Shown in pieces: positions 3,204 to 10,733 of a stretch of 64,000 nucleotides of DNA; position 1 is the first letter of the stretch, and each line of letters starts with the position of its first letter. This DNA comes from Rhodothermia bacterium (GTDB lineage Bacteria > Bacteroidota > Rhodothermia > Balneolales > Balneolaceae), in contig JAUICM010000005.1 of NCBI GenBank assembly GCA_030427885.1, forward strand, positions 248,001 through 312,000. The letters run 5' to 3'. Position numbers and translations under genes: made by a program. The notes below the pieces were generated by a model that saw nothing but the letters and a program-made list of their open reading frames with translations, searched no databases and was not told where the DNA came from.

Positions 3204-3713
3204 TTAGCGTTCCCAGAAGAAGGGAGGTTCAATACCCAGCGATCTGAGATATACATAACCCTGTCCGCGGTGATGGATCTCATTATCAATAAGATAAAAT
3301 AAATGAGAAATGATAGTGCCCTCATACTGCCCGTAAGCCGTTTCTGTGGTACGTAGTCTTTCGGGAGTTACTTTCTTCCAGGACTCATTTATAGAATCAG
3401 TAGCCCAATCCCAAAGTGCCAGTATGTCTTTTTTGGTTTTAGGCTCAATATTAAGTTCACCAGTTTCCATATCACTGAATTGGAGCCATTTATTCGGCTC
3501 AGCGATACCAGCTGCAGCAGGCGCACCCATAACGAGAAGCTCATTAGCCATCTCTCCGAAAGTTCGCATTCCACCGATGGAATGAGTGAAAAGTTTATCC
3601 TCCGGGAAAGCTTCGATGGCTTTACGGGTTAGTCGGCGATGACCTTGCCAGTGTTCCAGAAGTTCATCAGTGGTAAGGGTTGTTTGTACGGTAATTGTTT
3701 CTTGTTCTTGCAT
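3204..3713 (-). CDS. DinB family protein
   Basis: 169 residues of the DinB four-helix-bundle family. Features include LTTDELLEHWQGHRRLTRKAI in the first helix, a histidine in FTHSIGGMRTFGEMANELL, and the C-terminal NEIHHRGQGYVYLRSLGI with the paired metal-ligand histidines. Family members are putative metal-dependent enzymes, some acting as thiol transferases with bacillithiol or mycothiol. The presence of a YtxJ-like bacillithiol protein in this window makes that plausible, but it is inference. It is the first gene after the WYL regulator in the minus-strand cluster. Confidence 0.85.
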   Translation of the reverse strand: MQEQETITVQTTLTTDELLEHWQGHRRLTRKAIEAFPEDKLFTHSIGGMRTFGEMANELLVMGAPAAAGIAEPNKWLQFSDMETGELNIEPKTKKDILALWDWATDSINESWKKVTPERLRTTETAYGQYEGTIISHLFYLIDNEIHHRGQGYVYLRSLGIEPPFFWER

Positions 3714-4978: not shown

Positions 4979-5616
4979 CTATTTCCATTCATCAGGTCGC
5001 CTGATTTTTGGACCTATTGTATCTGGTAGTTGATGAGAAATCAAATCTTCTGACTTGAATTTTATAACATCAAAACAATATTGACTCAAGGATTTTGCAG
5101 TTCTAACATGTTGAGGCTGAACCAAAATAATAGTTTTTCCTAGTTCAGAAGAGACTATTCGGAATGCTTCACTCATATCAGTGTCATTAGTCAGAACTAA
5201 AGCTACGTCATATTGATCTTGAGTAGCTTCATATACCATGTGAACTGCAAGGTTTACATCAGAACCCTTTTCCTCTGGTAAATAGACTTTAACTAGTTCT
5301 TCCGTATCAACTAATGGCCTGTAAGCTTCATCGATCAAGAACTTTCCATATAAATCTCTAAATTTTCAGAGTGTAGTTCTAAGCCTCTCAGATAAGCGTT
5401 CTGTCTATGCGGCTTTGTTTGATCTTGAGCACCTGATACATGTGCAGTATAGTATTTGGAACATAAAATTTTATTCTTTTTATACTTTTTCTCAAGAATA
5501 CTTTTTGTGAAAGATTCAAGATCAAGCCATTTATACTTACGGTTCTCCTTATTTCTTTCCCCTCGAAATAAGTTGTAATACAAATTGAAGCCATCTATGT
5601 AGACAAATGTTCTCAT
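4979..5616 (-). pseudogene. NYN domain (LabA/DUF88-like) protein, frameshifted
   Basis: Two adjacent frames together spell one NYN/PIN-like RNase-type domain. The upstream frame (5335-5616) has the N-terminal VYIDGFNLYYN with the first acidic residue. The downstream frame (4979-5338) has EEKGSDVNLAVHMV and ALVLTNDTDMSEAF, the remaining acidic motifs. They join near 5340-5375, where the family expects a YGKF-like strand; a one-base indel would restore a 210-residue protein. No methionine or other start is needed for the second half if the frame is restored. It is either a recent pseudogene or a sequence error. Its transcription would begin just past the terminator at 5628-5654. Confidence 0.75.
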
Positions 5617-5654: not shown

Positions 5655-5746
5655 CCTGCCCTGAACAGAGTTCGAGGGTGTATTAATTTCTCTTCAAATA
5701 TAAATATTATATAGACAAATGTCATTTCAGTTTCAACTGTAACTCC

Positions 5747-5857
5747 TAATGAACCGGTGTTTAAGCGGCGAATCTGGAGGTTAAAATTAAAGACACGAAC
5801 CGCGTTATCAGAGCTGTGTCCGACCGCCGGCGGATCCGCTTGAAACGCTTGTTAGGC
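5747..5857 (-). other. attC site 1 (distal, partly decayed)
   Basis: The gene-proximal side is intact: GCCTAAC (R'') and AAGCGTTTCAAGCGG. The far side reads CCGCTTAAACACCGGTTCATTAG, with several changes from the array consensus, including loss of the G of the cleavable GTT. It is the last site of the array, 111 bp long, and may no longer accept insertions. Confidence 0.8.
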
Positions 5858-5877
5858 TAACAGACTTAAAGTCTGAT

Positions 5878-6369: not shown

Positions 6370-6378
6370 TTTCGTTAG

Positions 6379-6499
6379 CCTAACGACCCGGCGTTTAAGC
6401 GGCGCGGGGATTATGATTTCTTTGAAGTAGCGAAATTAATTCCTGGCAATCAAGTTGCATCGCACCTCGTCCGCGTCCGATTTAAAACGCATGTTATAG
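6379..6499 (-). other. attC site 2
   Basis: 121 bp. R'' on the minus strand is CTATAAC and R' is GTTAGGC, each belonging to a different cassette as expected for a filled array. The L boxes are ATGCGTTTTAAATCGGA and CGCCGCTTAAACGCC. The central spacer is unlike the two common spacer types of this array. Confidence 0.85.
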
Positions 6500-6664
6500 G
6501 GCGATTGATGGCAGGATTGGAAATTATTTTAACGCTCTATGTTTGAGTAGTAGCGGATTAGACACACATACATTTCAATAATTAAGATAACCAATAAAAG
6601 ACAAAAGCTTATTAGGTATGCCCTCAAACCACTATTAATTATACACGTTGTTGGCAGTAGTTTT
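6500..6664 (-). other. Spacer with GTTGGC-type boundary, possible second attC family
   Basis: 165 bp without a gene between attC 2 and the last gene of the six-gene block. On the minus strand it begins ACTGCCAACAACGTGTATAA (complement of 6639-6658), five bases after the stop of the 6665-7153 gene. The other end of the block has GTTGGCGGT (complement of 10169-10177), 16 bp before the sigma-factor start, so the two ends are inverted matches (8 of 9). From memory this resembles attC-like intergenic sequences of Flavobacteriia. Confidence 0.45.
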
Positions 6665-7153
6665 TTACTTCTTTCTCATGTTTTTGAACAGTCTGATAAA
6701 AATGTAGATATGACTTAAAAAAGTCGTTAAACCGTAAGTCACAAACATCAACCAAATGAAGCCTAGGTTTTGGTTGTAAAGTTCAAGTCCGAAAAACTGT
6801 GGGAAAGCTGTAATCAAATCTCCAAATCCAACGACGTTGAAAATCCATACTAATGGAAGGGCAAAACTCCATTTATTTTTCAGGCCGATTACAGCAATGA
6901 TTGCTAAGATTGCTGTGGTAAAATCGAGCAGGCCAACGGTGGTTAAAAATTCAACAGGAAATCCATCATAAAACTGCTCTTTTGCCATAAAGGACAATCC
7001 CAAATAGCGAAAGGTGTTGAGGAATACAAAAGGCAGAAGTGCTTCATATATTGGCAGCTTAGAAACACGGGGCTGTATCCAATATCTAAATCCGATTATG
7101 ATTGCAATCGTACCCGTAAGGGCTTGTAAATTGATGATTGTGAAATTGTCCAT
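6665..7153 (-). CDS. Multi-pass membrane protein, unknown function
   Basis: 162 residues with about five hydrophobic segments (around residues 8-23, 38-55, 74-90, 96-118, 128-155) and a basic C-terminus (LFKNMRKK). Not confidently assigned to a family. The start is 2 bp from the stop of the DUF1772-like gene, so it is the last gene of the six-gene cassette operon. Neighbours are also small integral membrane proteins and an SDR enzyme. Confidence 0.7.
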   Translation of the reverse strand: MDNFTIINLQALTGTIAIIIGFRYWIQPRVSKLPIYEALLPFVFLNTFRYLGLSFMAKEQFYDGFPVEFLTTVGLLDFTTAILAIIAVIGLKNKWSFALPLVWIFNVVGFGDLITAFPQFFGLELYNQNLGFIWLMFVTYGLTTFLSHIYIFIRLFKNMRKK

Positions 7154-7155
7154 GA

Positions 7156-7620
7156 TTAATTGTTTTGATTTAGTGAATTTTTATATGCTCTAACCGAAAA
7201 TATTGCTGCCACCATAACGAAAGTTGCCCTTACCCAATGTAGCATAAGCCACATATTGAGCTTGCTTGCGGCTACTTCGGCTGAGTATTTCATATCCATA
7301 AAACCGAAGTTGGTAGGTAAGTGATAGACACTGGTAATGGTGCAGGTGATCATTAATCCCACCAAGGCAATGATCCAATTCTTACGCACAGCTTTTTGAT
7401 CTTTTGTAGTCACTACCATTGCCACAGTGGCGATGAGTGCGGGCAGTAAAATTCCCATAGTAGGAGCTAATAGCAGTGGGAACTGAATCCCGAATTGTTG
7501 CATAAACTCTATCGGGTCTAAGGTCAGCCAATACCCGCCAAAACCAAGACCGATAACCACTAGATTTCCGATAAAGGCAGAAGTGCCAATAATTGCGATA
7601 TAGGGAAGTGCTTTCTTCAT
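7156..7620 (-). CDS. DUF1772-like membrane protein
   Basis: 154 residues with four hydrophobic helices. The C-terminal LNMWLMLHWVRATFVMVAAIFSVRAY, with an invariant-looking W..LHWVR, is the hallmark of the DUF1772 (anthrone oxygenase-like) family. Some fungal relatives act with oxidoreductases in polyketide pathways; in bacteria the role is unknown. It lies 1 bp after the SDR gene stop and is translationally coupled. Confidence 0.6.
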   Translation of the reverse strand: MKKALPYIAIIGTSAFIGNLVVIGLGFGGYWLTLDPIEFMQQFGIQFPLLLAPTMGILLPALIATVAMVVTTKDQKAVRKNWIIALVGLMITCTITSVYHLPTNFGFMDMKYSAEVAASKLNMWLMLHWVRATFVMVAAIFSVRAYKNSLNQNN

Positions 7621-7621
7621 A

Positions 7622-8383
7622 TTATTTTGTTTTAGGGATGGGCTGTTTGTTTAATTGCTTGAAAATGAATTTTGGAGCCAACCTACTCATCAGTTTGAGA
7701 AGCTTGGATATGCCTGGGGTGATTTCATCTTTGCCGTTCATGAAATCCTTCCAAAATATATCGGCCATTTTCTGCGGAGGCATGGGTTTCAGAATATCAT
7801 CTTCAGCAATGTCAGCTCCGTGAGCCAAAGGGGTATCAACAACGGGGGGTAAAAGTTCTACCACTCTAATTTCATGCGGCTTCAGTTGCGGACGAATAGC
7901 CATGGTCCAAAAATGCAATGCTGCTTTAGTTCCTGAATAGGTGGGAGCTTGAGTAAAAGGCACATAGGCTAAACCAGAGGAAGTATTGATTACCGTCCCT
8001 TTCTCGCTTTTCTTGAGTTGCGGAAGAAAGTAGTGCAACATTCGAATGGGCGCATTGAAGTTGATTTCAATTTCAGTAAACTGACGATCTAATTGATTGA
8101 CGTCACTACCTGCATCTATCAAGTTCATGATGCCGGCATTATTGAAGAGCACATCAATGCCACCAAAACTCTGTTCCATTTTCAGGGCTAAAGCTTTTAC
8201 GTCATCTTCATTGGTTACATCGCTATGCTCGATATGAATGGAAGGGAGGTCTGCCTTTACCTTTTCGAGTTTGGATAGATTTCGGCCTGTTACCACTACG
8301 TTATACTTGTATTCGAGGAATTTCTTAGCTATCGCTAATCCAATTCCTGAACTTCCGCCTGTAATTAGAACTGTATTCTTCAT
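7622..8383 (-). CDS. SDR family oxidoreductase (DltE-like)
   Basis: 253 residues of a classical short-chain dehydrogenase. The cofactor motif TGGSSGIGLAIAKKF is at residues 8-22 and NNAGIMN near 86-92. The catalytic serine lies in NTSSGLAYV and the tyrosine-lysine pair in YSGTKAALHF. The GRNLSKL segment after beta-2 contains an arginine typical of NADP(H) preference. The substrate is unknown; DltE-like members are common in Bacteroidota accessory operons. It sits centrally in the six-gene cassette. Confidence 0.9.
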   Translation of the reverse strand: MKNTVLITGGSSGIGLAIAKKFLEYKYNVVVTGRNLSKLEKVKADLPSIHIEHSDVTNEDDVKALALKMEQSFGGIDVLFNNAGIMNLIDAGSDVNQLDRQFTEIEINFNAPIRMLHYFLPQLKKSEKGTVINTSSGLAYVPFTQAPTYSGTKAALHFWTMAIRPQLKPHEIRVVELLPPVVDTPLAHGADIAEDDILKPMPPQKMADIFWKDFMNGKDEITPGISKLLKLMSRLAPKFIFKQLNKQPIPKTK

Positions 8384-8402
8384 TTTAATCCTATGATTAT
8401 TT

Positions 8403-8771
8403 TTAAAGTACGCCTGATTTTAAAAGCTTGGCATGCATCCAAAGCATGATTGCTGGAGGTATCAATTCAAGAAGGATTAGAAAAAGTAGAACAGGAGTTG
8501 CAGGGTAATTGATAAGAGCTACTGCTCTAACTACACCACCAATAATCAAGGCTATCATTACGAAGCGGAATAAGGTAGTCTCAGATGGATTCCAGGCGAC
8601 ATAAAAGAAGGCAAGTGACATGGCAGCCCATATCGCAGCTATGTATCTGTGGTTATTATCATCCATAGCGTTAAAAATCCCTGGATCATAGGCCGATGTC
8701 ATGGCCATAAAGCCAGTGGCGAGTGCAATTATTCCATAAAGGGCGAGAAAAAATCGAATGAATAGTAACAT
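8403..8771 (-). CDS. DUF4345-like membrane protein
   Basis: 122 residues with four hydrophobic helices. The first ends GFMAMTSAYDP; the segment NNHRYIAAIWAAMSLAFFYVAW matches the family pattern of an Asn-His/Tyr-Arg motif before helix 2. Function unknown. It lies between the SDR gene (19 bp) and the 145-residue membrane protein (2 bp) in one transcription unit. Confidence 0.6.
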   Translation of the reverse strand: MLLFIRFFLALYGIIALATGFMAMTSAYDPGIFNAMDDNNHRYIAAIWAAMSLAFFYVAWNPSETTLFRFVMIALIIGGVVRAVALINYPATPVLLFLILLELIPPAIMLWMHAKLLKSGVL

Positions 8772-8773
8772 GA

Positions 8774-9208
8774 TTAATCGTTTTTAGAAGGGTTTTTGAG
8801 AAAAGTGTAGGCTGCAATTACAATGGGTATTGCAAAAGGAATGTGTTGAATAATGTCCAATACAGAAGCATTCGGTACAAAGACACCCCAAACAACCATA
8901 TCAACGAGTATGACCAAGACAAGGGTTACAACATGGAATTGACCTGCTAATTTGAACTGGCCTTGGCGAATAGAGAGAATGACAAATATAGGAGGGAGGA
9001 AATCACAAATAGCTTTGAAAACGGCAACGATCTTTGCAAAACTAATCGCTGCATCTGTGTCTGCTGAAATGGAGAAAGACCCCTCAGCTGCTAATGGAAA
9101 GACTAGCCAAAAAATACCGATACCAATAAGCATAAAGGCTGAAATGTAACTGGCCCATATACCTGTTTTTATTTCCTTAGATAAATCACTGTAGCTGTAA
9201 TTTTTCAT
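8774..9208 (-). CDS. Four-helix integral membrane protein, unknown
   Basis: About 144 residues from the ATG at 9206-9208; a GTG two codons upstream is an alternative. It has four hydrophobic segments (residues about 17-37, 57-77, 86-106, 115-137) and ends in KNPSKND. I do not recognise the family. It is the first gene downstream of the sigma factor, and its start abuts a 12-bp perfect inverted repeat (9211-9257). This suggests control of the membrane/SDR genes separately from the sigma gene. Confidence 0.65.
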   Translation of the reverse strand: MKNYSYSDLSKEIKTGIWASYISAFMLIGIGIFWLVFPLAAEGSFSISADTDAAISFAKIVAVFKAICDFLPPIFVILSIRQGQFKLAGQFHVVTLVLVILVDMVVWGVFVPNASVLDIIQHIPFAIPIVIAAYTFLKNPSKND

Positions 9209-9210
9209 GA

Positions 9211-9257
9211 ACACCTGAGTTTGTTTTATTACTTAGACAAGTAAAAAACTCAGGTGT
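9211..9257. promoter_or_regulatory. 12-bp perfect inverted repeat between sigma factor and downstream operon
   Basis: ACACCTGAGTTT and AAACTCAGGTGT flank an inner TTACTT/AAGTAA pair. The element fills the gap between the sigma-factor stop and the next start. It could be an operator or an RNA structure that hides the ribosome entry site. A terminator is less likely because no T-run follows on the minus strand. Confidence 0.5.
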
Positions 9258-9277
9258 GACCACTTTGAAGAAAAAAC

Positions 9278-10153
9278 TTAATTCAAATTGAGATTGGTAC
9301 GCCAGTTAGGGCTTTCAAGAATGGATTGAAGGAAATTCTTTTTTTCGAATTGGGTTTTAAAACTACTATTTCTGTGTAATTCTGCGTAGAGCTCTTCTGA
9401 TTCTTCTACCAACTGGTTGGCTTGAGGCTCAATTTGATCTTGAAAAGTTGAGTACTCTTTGCGATTAAATAGAAGGTTCTTGGCATCTACCATTCCACTG
9501 TCAAGTGCTATCGTTACTTTCTTATGACATCTGCATGGATTTGATTTGTCTACCAAACCACATTTGTTCTGCATAAAATTATGAAGATGTTTTCTGGCTC
9601 TGCTCAGTTTCTTTCTATATGTAGCTTTTGAAACGGACATGATTTCAGAACCAATGTTATGGTCAGCGTCAAAAATGTCTCCAATTATATAAACGAGTCT
9701 TTGTTCCTTAGTTAAGCACAAAAGCATTCCTGATAGACACTGCAAACGCACTTCTCTTATCTCTTCTTTTTTAGCTTCCTGCTCATCATCAGATATATCA
9801 AAACTTGGAGTGTTGTCTAACGCATTCCCTAAATCATCAAAATTTTCCATGAAAGGACCATTTGGTTTTTTTTGTTGATTTAGAAAATGATTCCACACGA
9901 TGCGATATGCCCAGGTTCTAAATGTACTTTCACCTTTAAAAGAGTTCAGACTAGAAATGATTTTAATTAAAGCTTCTTGGGTTAGGTCTTCGGCTTGTAT
10001 GGGGTCACCAATCGTTTTCCAAGCAATGTTGTAAATGTAGGGTTGGTGTTTTTGGATTAGACTATTTAGAGACTGTTTTTTGCCTTTTAAAACCTCTTCT
10101 ATTAATGATGCGTCAGTCTTGTCTGAGTTGTATGCCGTTGAAAAAGGATTCAT
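9278..10153 (-). CDS. ECF-type RNA polymerase sigma factor with C-terminal extension
   Basis: 291 residues. Sigma region 2 is clear (YNIAWKTIGDPIQAEDLTQEALIKI and TFRTWAYRIVWNHFLNQQKK, residues about 40-110). Region 4 covers about residues 140-200 (LLCLTKEQRLVYIIGDIFD, then SKATYRKKLSRARKHLHNFM). A 90-residue tail begins with CGLVDKSNPCRCHKK, a Cys/His cluster that could bind a metal, as in other Bacteroidota factors of this type. No anti-sigma gene of recognisable type follows; the downstream membrane proteins are candidates. It is the first gene of the six-gene cassette. Confidence 0.88.
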   Translation of the reverse strand: MNPFSTAYNSDKTDASLIEEVLKGKKQSLNSLIQKHQPYIYNIAWKTIGDPIQAEDLTQEALIKIISSLNSFKGESTFRTWAYRIVWNHFLNQQKKPNGPFMENFDDLGNALDNTPSFDISDDEQEAKKEEIREVRLQCLSGMLLCLTKEQRLVYIIGDIFDADHNIGSEIMSVSKATYRKKLSRARKHLHNFMQNKCGLVDKSNPCRCHKKVTIALDSGMVDAKNLLFNRKEYSTFQDQIEPQANQLVEESEELYAELHRNSSFKTQFEKKNFLQSILESPNWRTNLNLN

Positions 10154-10173
10154 AGTTTCTTTTTTTGCACCGC

Positions 10174-10201
10174 CAACATTGGCATATAACCAATGATGTT
10201 G
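10174..10201. promoter_or_regulatory. Inverted repeat upstream of the cassette sigma-factor gene
   Basis: CAACATTGG and CCAATGATGTTG pair with one bulged base around a 7-base AT-rich loop, about 20-48 bp before the sigma start. It could be an operator for the sigma gene or the stem of a GTTGGC-type recombination site, since it overlaps that box. The rest of the 10202-10336 spacer is AT-rich with nothing recognised. Confidence 0.4.
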
Positions 10202-10336
10202 AGGTTATCCTTACTTGTACGAATGTTGAACTAATGCTATTCTTATAAGAATTAGTATAAGCTTAAGAAAGCGTAGATACTAGCATAGTTCGAATATCAT
10301 TTTAGATTCAAGAAATTTCTTGATATCACAACAGCC

Positions 10337-10426
10337 CTATAACGACCCTGCGTTTAAGGTGCGAGGCCGTGAGTTAATATTTTCAACTCGGACAGTAACC
10401 GAGTCACATTGAAACGCTTGTTATAC
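10337..10426 (-). other. attC site 3
   Basis: 90 bp. R'' GTATAAC and R' GTTATAG on the minus strand, with AAGCGTTTCAATGTGACTCGG and CACCTTAAACGCAGGGTC as inner boxes. The right arm of the hairpin carries changes (GCACC for GCCGC). The 10404-10733 coding sequence runs into this site. Confidence 0.85.
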
Positions 10427-10733
10427 CACTTTTTGATTTAAAGTAATTGAAAAGTAATATAAACAGGCTACTGAATAATAAACTATTTAGTAAAGCTGCA
10501 AGAACAACAACTAATACTTTAGGCACAAAATTGATTAATGGAGCAACTATTAAAATTGAAGGATAAATGATATAAGAACCGATCCAAATCATAATATCCA
10601 GAAAAACAGTTGTTGTACTTTCCCAAGCAGATAAAGCCATAACCCAAGCCATAAAATGTAAACCAACACTAACTACAAATAAGATTGTAGTTGAAATAAA
10701 TAGTTGGCGTTTTGTTGGTAAATAGCTTTTCAA
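10404..10733 (-). CDS. Cassette gene: small membrane protein
   Basis: 109 residues with three or four hydrophobic helices (residues about 10-30, 36-58, 64-98); family not recognised. The start lies about 15 bp from the cassette start. The coding sequence continues through the R'' and first L box of attC 3, so its last eight or so residues are encoded by the recombination site. Cassette ends match over GTTATACCACTT/AAGTGGTATAAC. Confidence 0.65.
   Translation of the reverse strand: MKSYLPTKRQLFISTTILFVVSVGLHFMAWVMALSAWESTTTVFLDIMIWIGSYIIYPSILIVAPLINFVPKVLVVVLAALLNSLLFSSLFILLFNYFKSKSGITSVSM

Follow-up and report, generated by a model that had tools for sequence, protein, structure and literature searches.

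The usual description of an integron cassette is of a single gene without a promoter, expressed from the promoter of the integron platform. We analysed a 64,000-nucleotide stretch (hereafter the window) from a Rhodothermia bacterium (contig JAUICM010000005.1, positions 248,001 to 312,000), in which one integron cassette holds six genes, the first encoding an extracytoplasmic function (ECF) sigma factor, together with a putative target promoter for that factor. Among the closest described systems are cassettes with a promoter of their own, cmlA1 and others (PMC8876359), and promoter cassettes lacking an open reading frame (ORF; PMC11014356). The six-gene cassette resembles the promoter-bearing ones in its attC flanks and in a transcription start inside the cassette, which is predicted here, but differs in that its promoter would act together with a sigma factor encoded in the cassette itself and serve five further genes. 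We found no description of a cassette-borne sigma factor in the open literature searched, and make no claim that none exists in print. Taken as a whole, a captured operon with its own sigma factor, an internal promoter and a lock against read-through messages is an explanation that we consider reasonably likely.

The block is one integron cassette, delimited by the following features:

6384–10342, minus strand: complete integron cassette, 3,959 bp, running from 10342, the boundary between G and TTATAGGGC, through its own attC.
6377–6500, minus strand: attC of the six-gene cassette, with R'' CCCTATAAC, L'' GCGTTTTAAATCGG, L' CGCCGCTTAAACGC and R' from the next cassette (covariance model, 77.2 bits).
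10336–10427, minus strand: attC belonging to the previous cassette, continuing into the opening bases of the six-gene cassette (covariance model, 77.9 bits).

The covariance model was built from 22 attC sites, all of this genome's attC type, and gave nine attC sites in the window, at 76–100 bits each. These have the standard integron architecture of R''/L''/L'/R' with TAAC and GTTA boxes; the arm GCGTTT[C/T]AAGCGG pairs with CCGCTTAAACGC, leaving one base unpaired, the spacers are AA and CGGGTC, and each of the 16 designated pairs is kept in at least 19 of the 22 aligned sites. A hand-built scan for attC stems (stem cut-off 9) recovered five of the nine window sites and was unspecific, and a motif search and the covariance model were used instead. 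An intact attC inside the block would have spoken against the single cassette proposed in a preliminary description of this DNA; none was found, the best match in 6520–10330 with filters off being 14.2 bits over 51 bases. With bounding attC sites and none internal, 6384–10342 is therefore a single cassette, and its six ORFs are co-directional and intact, with the sigma gene first. The other seven complete cassettes of the window measure 407–757 bp, and not the 0.3–0.6 kb first given, with one main ORF apiece.

The ends of the six-gene cassette pair over 10 bp (GTTATAGGGC/GCCCTATAAC), as the preliminary description had pointed out. In the circular form of a cassette, the first bases and the cassette's own R'' box make one attC, so that bounded cassettes must have complementary ends. 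The pairing thus supports the cassette status of the block but is not special to it, because attC-bounded cassettes must show complementarity of the R'/R'' type: all eight complete window cassettes, the six-gene one included, have it over 10–12 bp, and we rejected any special meaning for the paired ends. In a second, integrase-linked array of the same genome (L017), ends pair over 9–13 bp in 11 of 13 intervals and over 4 bp in the remaining two; an extra attC lies in one of these. In most cassettes of both arrays the pairing, at 9–13 bp, exceeds the 7-bp core boxes, an observation that may bear on the origin of new cassettes.

The cassette encodes the following products:

9278–10153, minus strand: gene 1, ECF sigma factor, 291 aa (Pfam Sigma70_r2).
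8774–9208, minus strand: gene 2, small membrane protein with a weak DUF4267 match below cut-off; start ATG at 9208, alternative start GTG at 9214.
8403–8771, minus strand: gene 3, membrane protein DUF4345 (Pfam, over cut-off).
7622–8383, minus strand: gene 4, short-chain dehydrogenase/reductase (SDR; Pfam adh_short).
7156–7620, minus strand: gene 5, anthrone-oxygenase-like membrane protein (Pfam Anthrone_oxy PF08592, 29.3 bits against a cut-off of 27.3).
6665–7153, minus strand: gene 6, membrane protein with five predicted helices (no match in Pfam).

These assignments bear out the four small membrane proteins and SDR that had been proposed beside the sigma factor. A fold search with gene 6 gave no PDB match at E ≤ 0.001. 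As a guess, the five target genes probably serve detoxification or membrane stress.

The sigma factor has regions 2 and 4, the latter slightly under the Pfam cut-off, and lacks region 3, as an ECF factor does; ordinary ECF factors also ranked top in a fold search. It ends in an extension of about 95 residues, modelled as helical at low confidence. Five cysteines (C139, C146, C198, C207 and C209) are invariant in a 29-sequence alignment and in 31 of 31 sequences of another. C139 and C146 precede the extension, whose conserved cysteines are C198 and those of PCRC, the latter within an NPCRC motif; by analogy, these residues suggest metal or redox sensing. Two described sigma groups invite comparison. 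The ECF41 report (PMC3426412) describes factors that lack an anti-sigma factor, carry a fused C-terminal domain and act only on a neighbouring gene through TGTCACA-type promoters. The cassette factor is alike in its fused extension, in the lack of an anti-sigma gene (none among the six cassette genes by Pfam), in its predicted neighbour-gene targets and in the oxidoreductase among them. It differs in that its extension carries the NPCRC cysteines and has no Pfam match to a SnoaL-like domain at E ≤ 0.1. CorE-like factors (ECF44/ECF238) have a CXC motif in the linker and a cysteine-rich C terminus (PMC8999054). The cassette factor shares with them cysteines in a C-terminal extension, but its conserved pre-extension cysteines do not form CXC and a cysteine-rich domain like that of CorE is not seen, which sets it apart from the CorE-like group. 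The comparisons placed it in no numbered ECF group.

In the 63 bp that separate the sigma stop from gene 2 lies a motif, new here, that is probably the sigma factor's own target promoter:

9259–9233, minus strand: putative sigma-dependent promoter TCACAC-N13-TTGTCTAA.

Searching 84,980 species genomes for relatives of the sigma protein yielded 45 loci, and the same element follows the sigma stop in most of those that have target genes, with the general form TNACAC-N13-TTGTCTAA and rigid spacing. We built a matrix from 14 sites and scored 22 module loci, the window included: each has at least one promoter site, among them nine of nine loci outside the matrix training (one, L067, being a near-duplicate of a training locus). 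In 20 of the 22 the site is no more than 120 nt past the sigma stop; in L058 and L065 it precedes another module gene. The window's 4.15-Mb genome has a single exact match to the pattern, and of 15 exact sites in the 19 genomes searched, 14 fall within the module. A sample of 394 genomes, drawn from the phylum to which L092's genome belongs, gave seven with a near-exact match to the motif; tblastn found no module genes near the seven matches outside the known module (L114–L120). The ECF41 promoter, TGTCACA-n16-CGTC, has a related −35 element and a −10 element that differs from TTGTCTAA. These positions suggest that the sigma factor recognizes TCACAC-N13-TTGTCTAA, and the motif's place inside the cassette supports, at the level of sequence, the earlier proposal that the factor drives the other five genes. 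Two variants were seen elsewhere. L132 (3797) has the target motif both before and after its sigma gene, suggesting positive autoregulation there, unlike the window, which has no target motif before the sigma gene. Nine loci of Aquimarina-type and other flavobacterial relatives (L072, L076, L077, L079–L083 and L086) have TCACAC-N13-GCATCTAA-like sites after the sigma stop, with a similar −35 element and spacing but an altered −10 box, often 3' of a terminator-like stem.

The spacer of this promoter is complementary to the translation start that follows it:

9213–9255, minus strand: putative read-through hairpin, with left arm ACCTGAGTTT (9255–9246) in the promoter spacer and right arm AAACTCAGGT (9222–9213).

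In the window, ACCTGAGTTT and AAACTCAGGT are perfectly complementary, and AAACTCAGGT takes in most of the AGGTG ribosome site of gene 2. The pairing covaries: L134 keeps it with different letters, GGGAAAAGCGCT with AGCGCTTTTCC, and L092 keeps it between ATTCC and TCTCTT and GGAAT(G) and AAGAGA. We scored the pairing of left arms of 17 nt with right arms of 38 nt in 26 sites, the L058 site at 3712 among them, after dropping the near-duplicates L057 and L067 from 28 and leaving out the Aquimarina-type relatives, whose −10 box differs; sites in L070 and L085, loci without the five target genes, were excluded from the final set, and both are unpaired. The self-pairing mean was −9.73 kcal/mol versus −6.34 kcal/mol for mismatched partners (nominally 0 of 20,000 permutations). 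For 11 sites outside the first set, viewed by eye before the test with arms and scoring fixed earlier, the values were −8.36 versus −5.14 kcal/mol (2 of 20,000). With 13 shifted-arm controls the difference was at most 1.03 kcal/mol. Pairing at or below −9 kcal/mol, computed in 18 of the 26 sites, places there the covarying pairing of an upstream segment with a translation start that marks a read-through lock of the gene e type. The conserved complementarity of spacer and start is thus well supported by computation. When five segments were folded, read-through RNA gave −10 to −22.6 kcal/mol and RNA beginning 6 nt after TCTAA gave 0 to −2.7, suggesting a translational lock in which the start would be hidden in read-through RNA and free in sigma-initiated RNA. 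The early and late messages of the T4 lysozyme gene e and the fold-back inhibition of IS10 reportedly work in this way, a longer read-through RNA hiding the ribosome site that the proper promoter's RNA leaves exposed. The difference here is that one arm is the promoter spacer itself, covarying across many Bacteroidota.

The preliminary description suggested looking for the same six genes elsewhere, and they occur in the same order in L060 (Cyclobacterium), L061 (Neolewinella), L064 (a Leptospiraceae metagenome-assembled genome, MAG) and L092 (Algoriphagus locisalis), the last being the only insertion-free locus of the four, with gene spacing as tight as in the cassette. L133 keeps the order with gene 6 in pieces, and the remaining relatives carry subsets or different orders. 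None of the 21 relative loci searched matched the attC model at E ≤ 1, although the model represents the window genome's attC type and could miss others. The genes therefore do occur as an operon without attC, but the window block is still bounded by attC sites; the simplest reading of these sequences is that a complete, foreign Bacteroidota-type operon was captured whole as one cassette. MAGs labelled Marinoscillum, Winogradskyella and Flavobacteriales hold the closest sigma factors, at 84, 81 and 79% identity. In the phylum of the window, relatives at E ≤ 1e-25 were seen in 10 of 394 genomes (the window's genome included), the best in another genome being 44% identical. No relative of the sigma factor was found in IMG/VR, and a plasmid search gave distant ones only, below 60% identity. 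Among plasmids, those of Leptospira (L131 and the plasmid matches) encode a 38% identical sigma factor of the same family; the annotation of the single stretch inspected does not show the five target genes next to it. Elsewhere, the upstream gene in L055 is one that we take, by eye, to be a malate dehydrogenase, and gene 6 of a MAG contig (L056:2341–2826) has one in-frame stop.

From these elements we propose the following circuit. The sigma factor would be produced at a low level from a presumed promoter, and its cysteine-bearing C-terminal extension, proposed as its control because no anti-sigma gene is present, would hold or release it. Active sigma factor would then initiate at TCACAC-N13-TTGTCTAA between the sigma gene and gene 2, giving a five-gene message. 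Messages entering from the sigma gene or from the array would fold the promoter spacer onto the ribosome site and start of gene 2 and hide them, whereas messages begun at the sigma promoter, being without the left arm, would be translated.

Several observations weigh against this account. No promoter for the sigma gene was identified, a scan of 10154–10342 with an E. coli-type consensus being empty; the independence from an array promoter that had been suggested is thus supported only by half, the predicted target promoter being internal but lacking a counterpart for the sigma gene itself. No integrase adjoins the window array, and a genome-wide profile search gave an IntI over the family cut-off on contig C5 only. 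The reversed promoter pattern has 13 chance matches in the same 19 genomes, which makes genome-wide rarity modest evidence and position the stronger. Eight of the 26 pairing sites are weaker than −6 kcal/mol, both L132 sites included, and three of the 13 control offsets reach 154 of 5,000 permutations or fewer, so the nominal permutation values are liberal. The first two of these points, together with an outermost attC (5743–5858) that is degenerate on its R' side, favour the view that the cassette is a silent passenger of a decaying array, transcribed by read-through if at all, its motif and dyad relics of a former chromosomal life. The nine-attC array, at 5.74–14.04 kb of the window, is a CALIN, a cluster of at least two attC sites with no IntI nearby (PMC9024848). 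All six reading frames, the motif and the hairpin are nevertheless intact, and the IntI on C5 (529082–530026; 436 bits against a cut-off of 265; an open frame of 328 aa with no stops) sits beside its own array of the same attC type and could act on the window array from a distance. We regard a silent passenger as unlikely, though the most serious of the alternatives.

The sigma–promoter link could also hold with the dyad around the −10 box acting as DNA, either as a cruciform exposing the −10 or as an operator, and not as an RNA lock. The −10 box does sit in the dyad's loop, and recognition of the −10 element by ECF factors takes place on single-stranded DNA (compare the 4lup title). Unlike an operator, however, the arms vary in sequence between loci with pairing kept, and in the folded segments the right arm extends to the start codon or to the ribosome-binding site, which leaves a DNA role rather improbable. 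A fusion of several one-gene cassettes by loss of internal attC sites would suit a cassette about six times the size of its neighbours, but the same genes stand in the same order outside attC arrays, with equally tight spacing in L092, and no attC remnant lies inside the block; we rejected this origin as very improbable.

Some features of the arrays and genome stand apart from the circuit. In the integrase-linked array, a divergent extra attC (L017:7012–7142, 42 bits) splits an apparent 1,244-bp cassette in two, and a 2,037-bp cassette (L017:12379–14415; G000 C5:538378–540414) carries a PtuA–PtuB pair of Septu-type defence (PADLOC E values of 3.5e-162 and 4.1e-72). More attC sites of the same type, single or in small clusters, are scattered away from the integrase on contigs C2, C3, C5 and C8 (L018–L023), and on the minus strand of the window at 4979–5616 a NYN-domain gene is apparently split into two overlapping frames, perhaps frameshifted.

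Returning to the captured operon with its sigma factor and lock, we think that the cassette probably comes with a control circuit that is private and insulated, and that the package may control itself instead of relying on the gene-capture platform. The fullest form of this reading, in which sigma factor, sole target promoter and a lock rejecting array read-through form a complete private circuit, a multi-gene function moves with its regulation, and the use of a promoter spacer against a ribosome site recurs in Bacteroidota beyond integrons, is one that we hold tentatively, at a little under even chances. If it is true, integrons can move whole regulated operons, and such cargo could be expressed in an array without an adjoining integrase or platform promoter. 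The covarying hairpin of spacer and start would carry a general prediction, that targets of this sigma family stay silent until the sigma factor acts, and the lock, if true, would be a gene-control device of Bacteroidota that is not tied to integrons.

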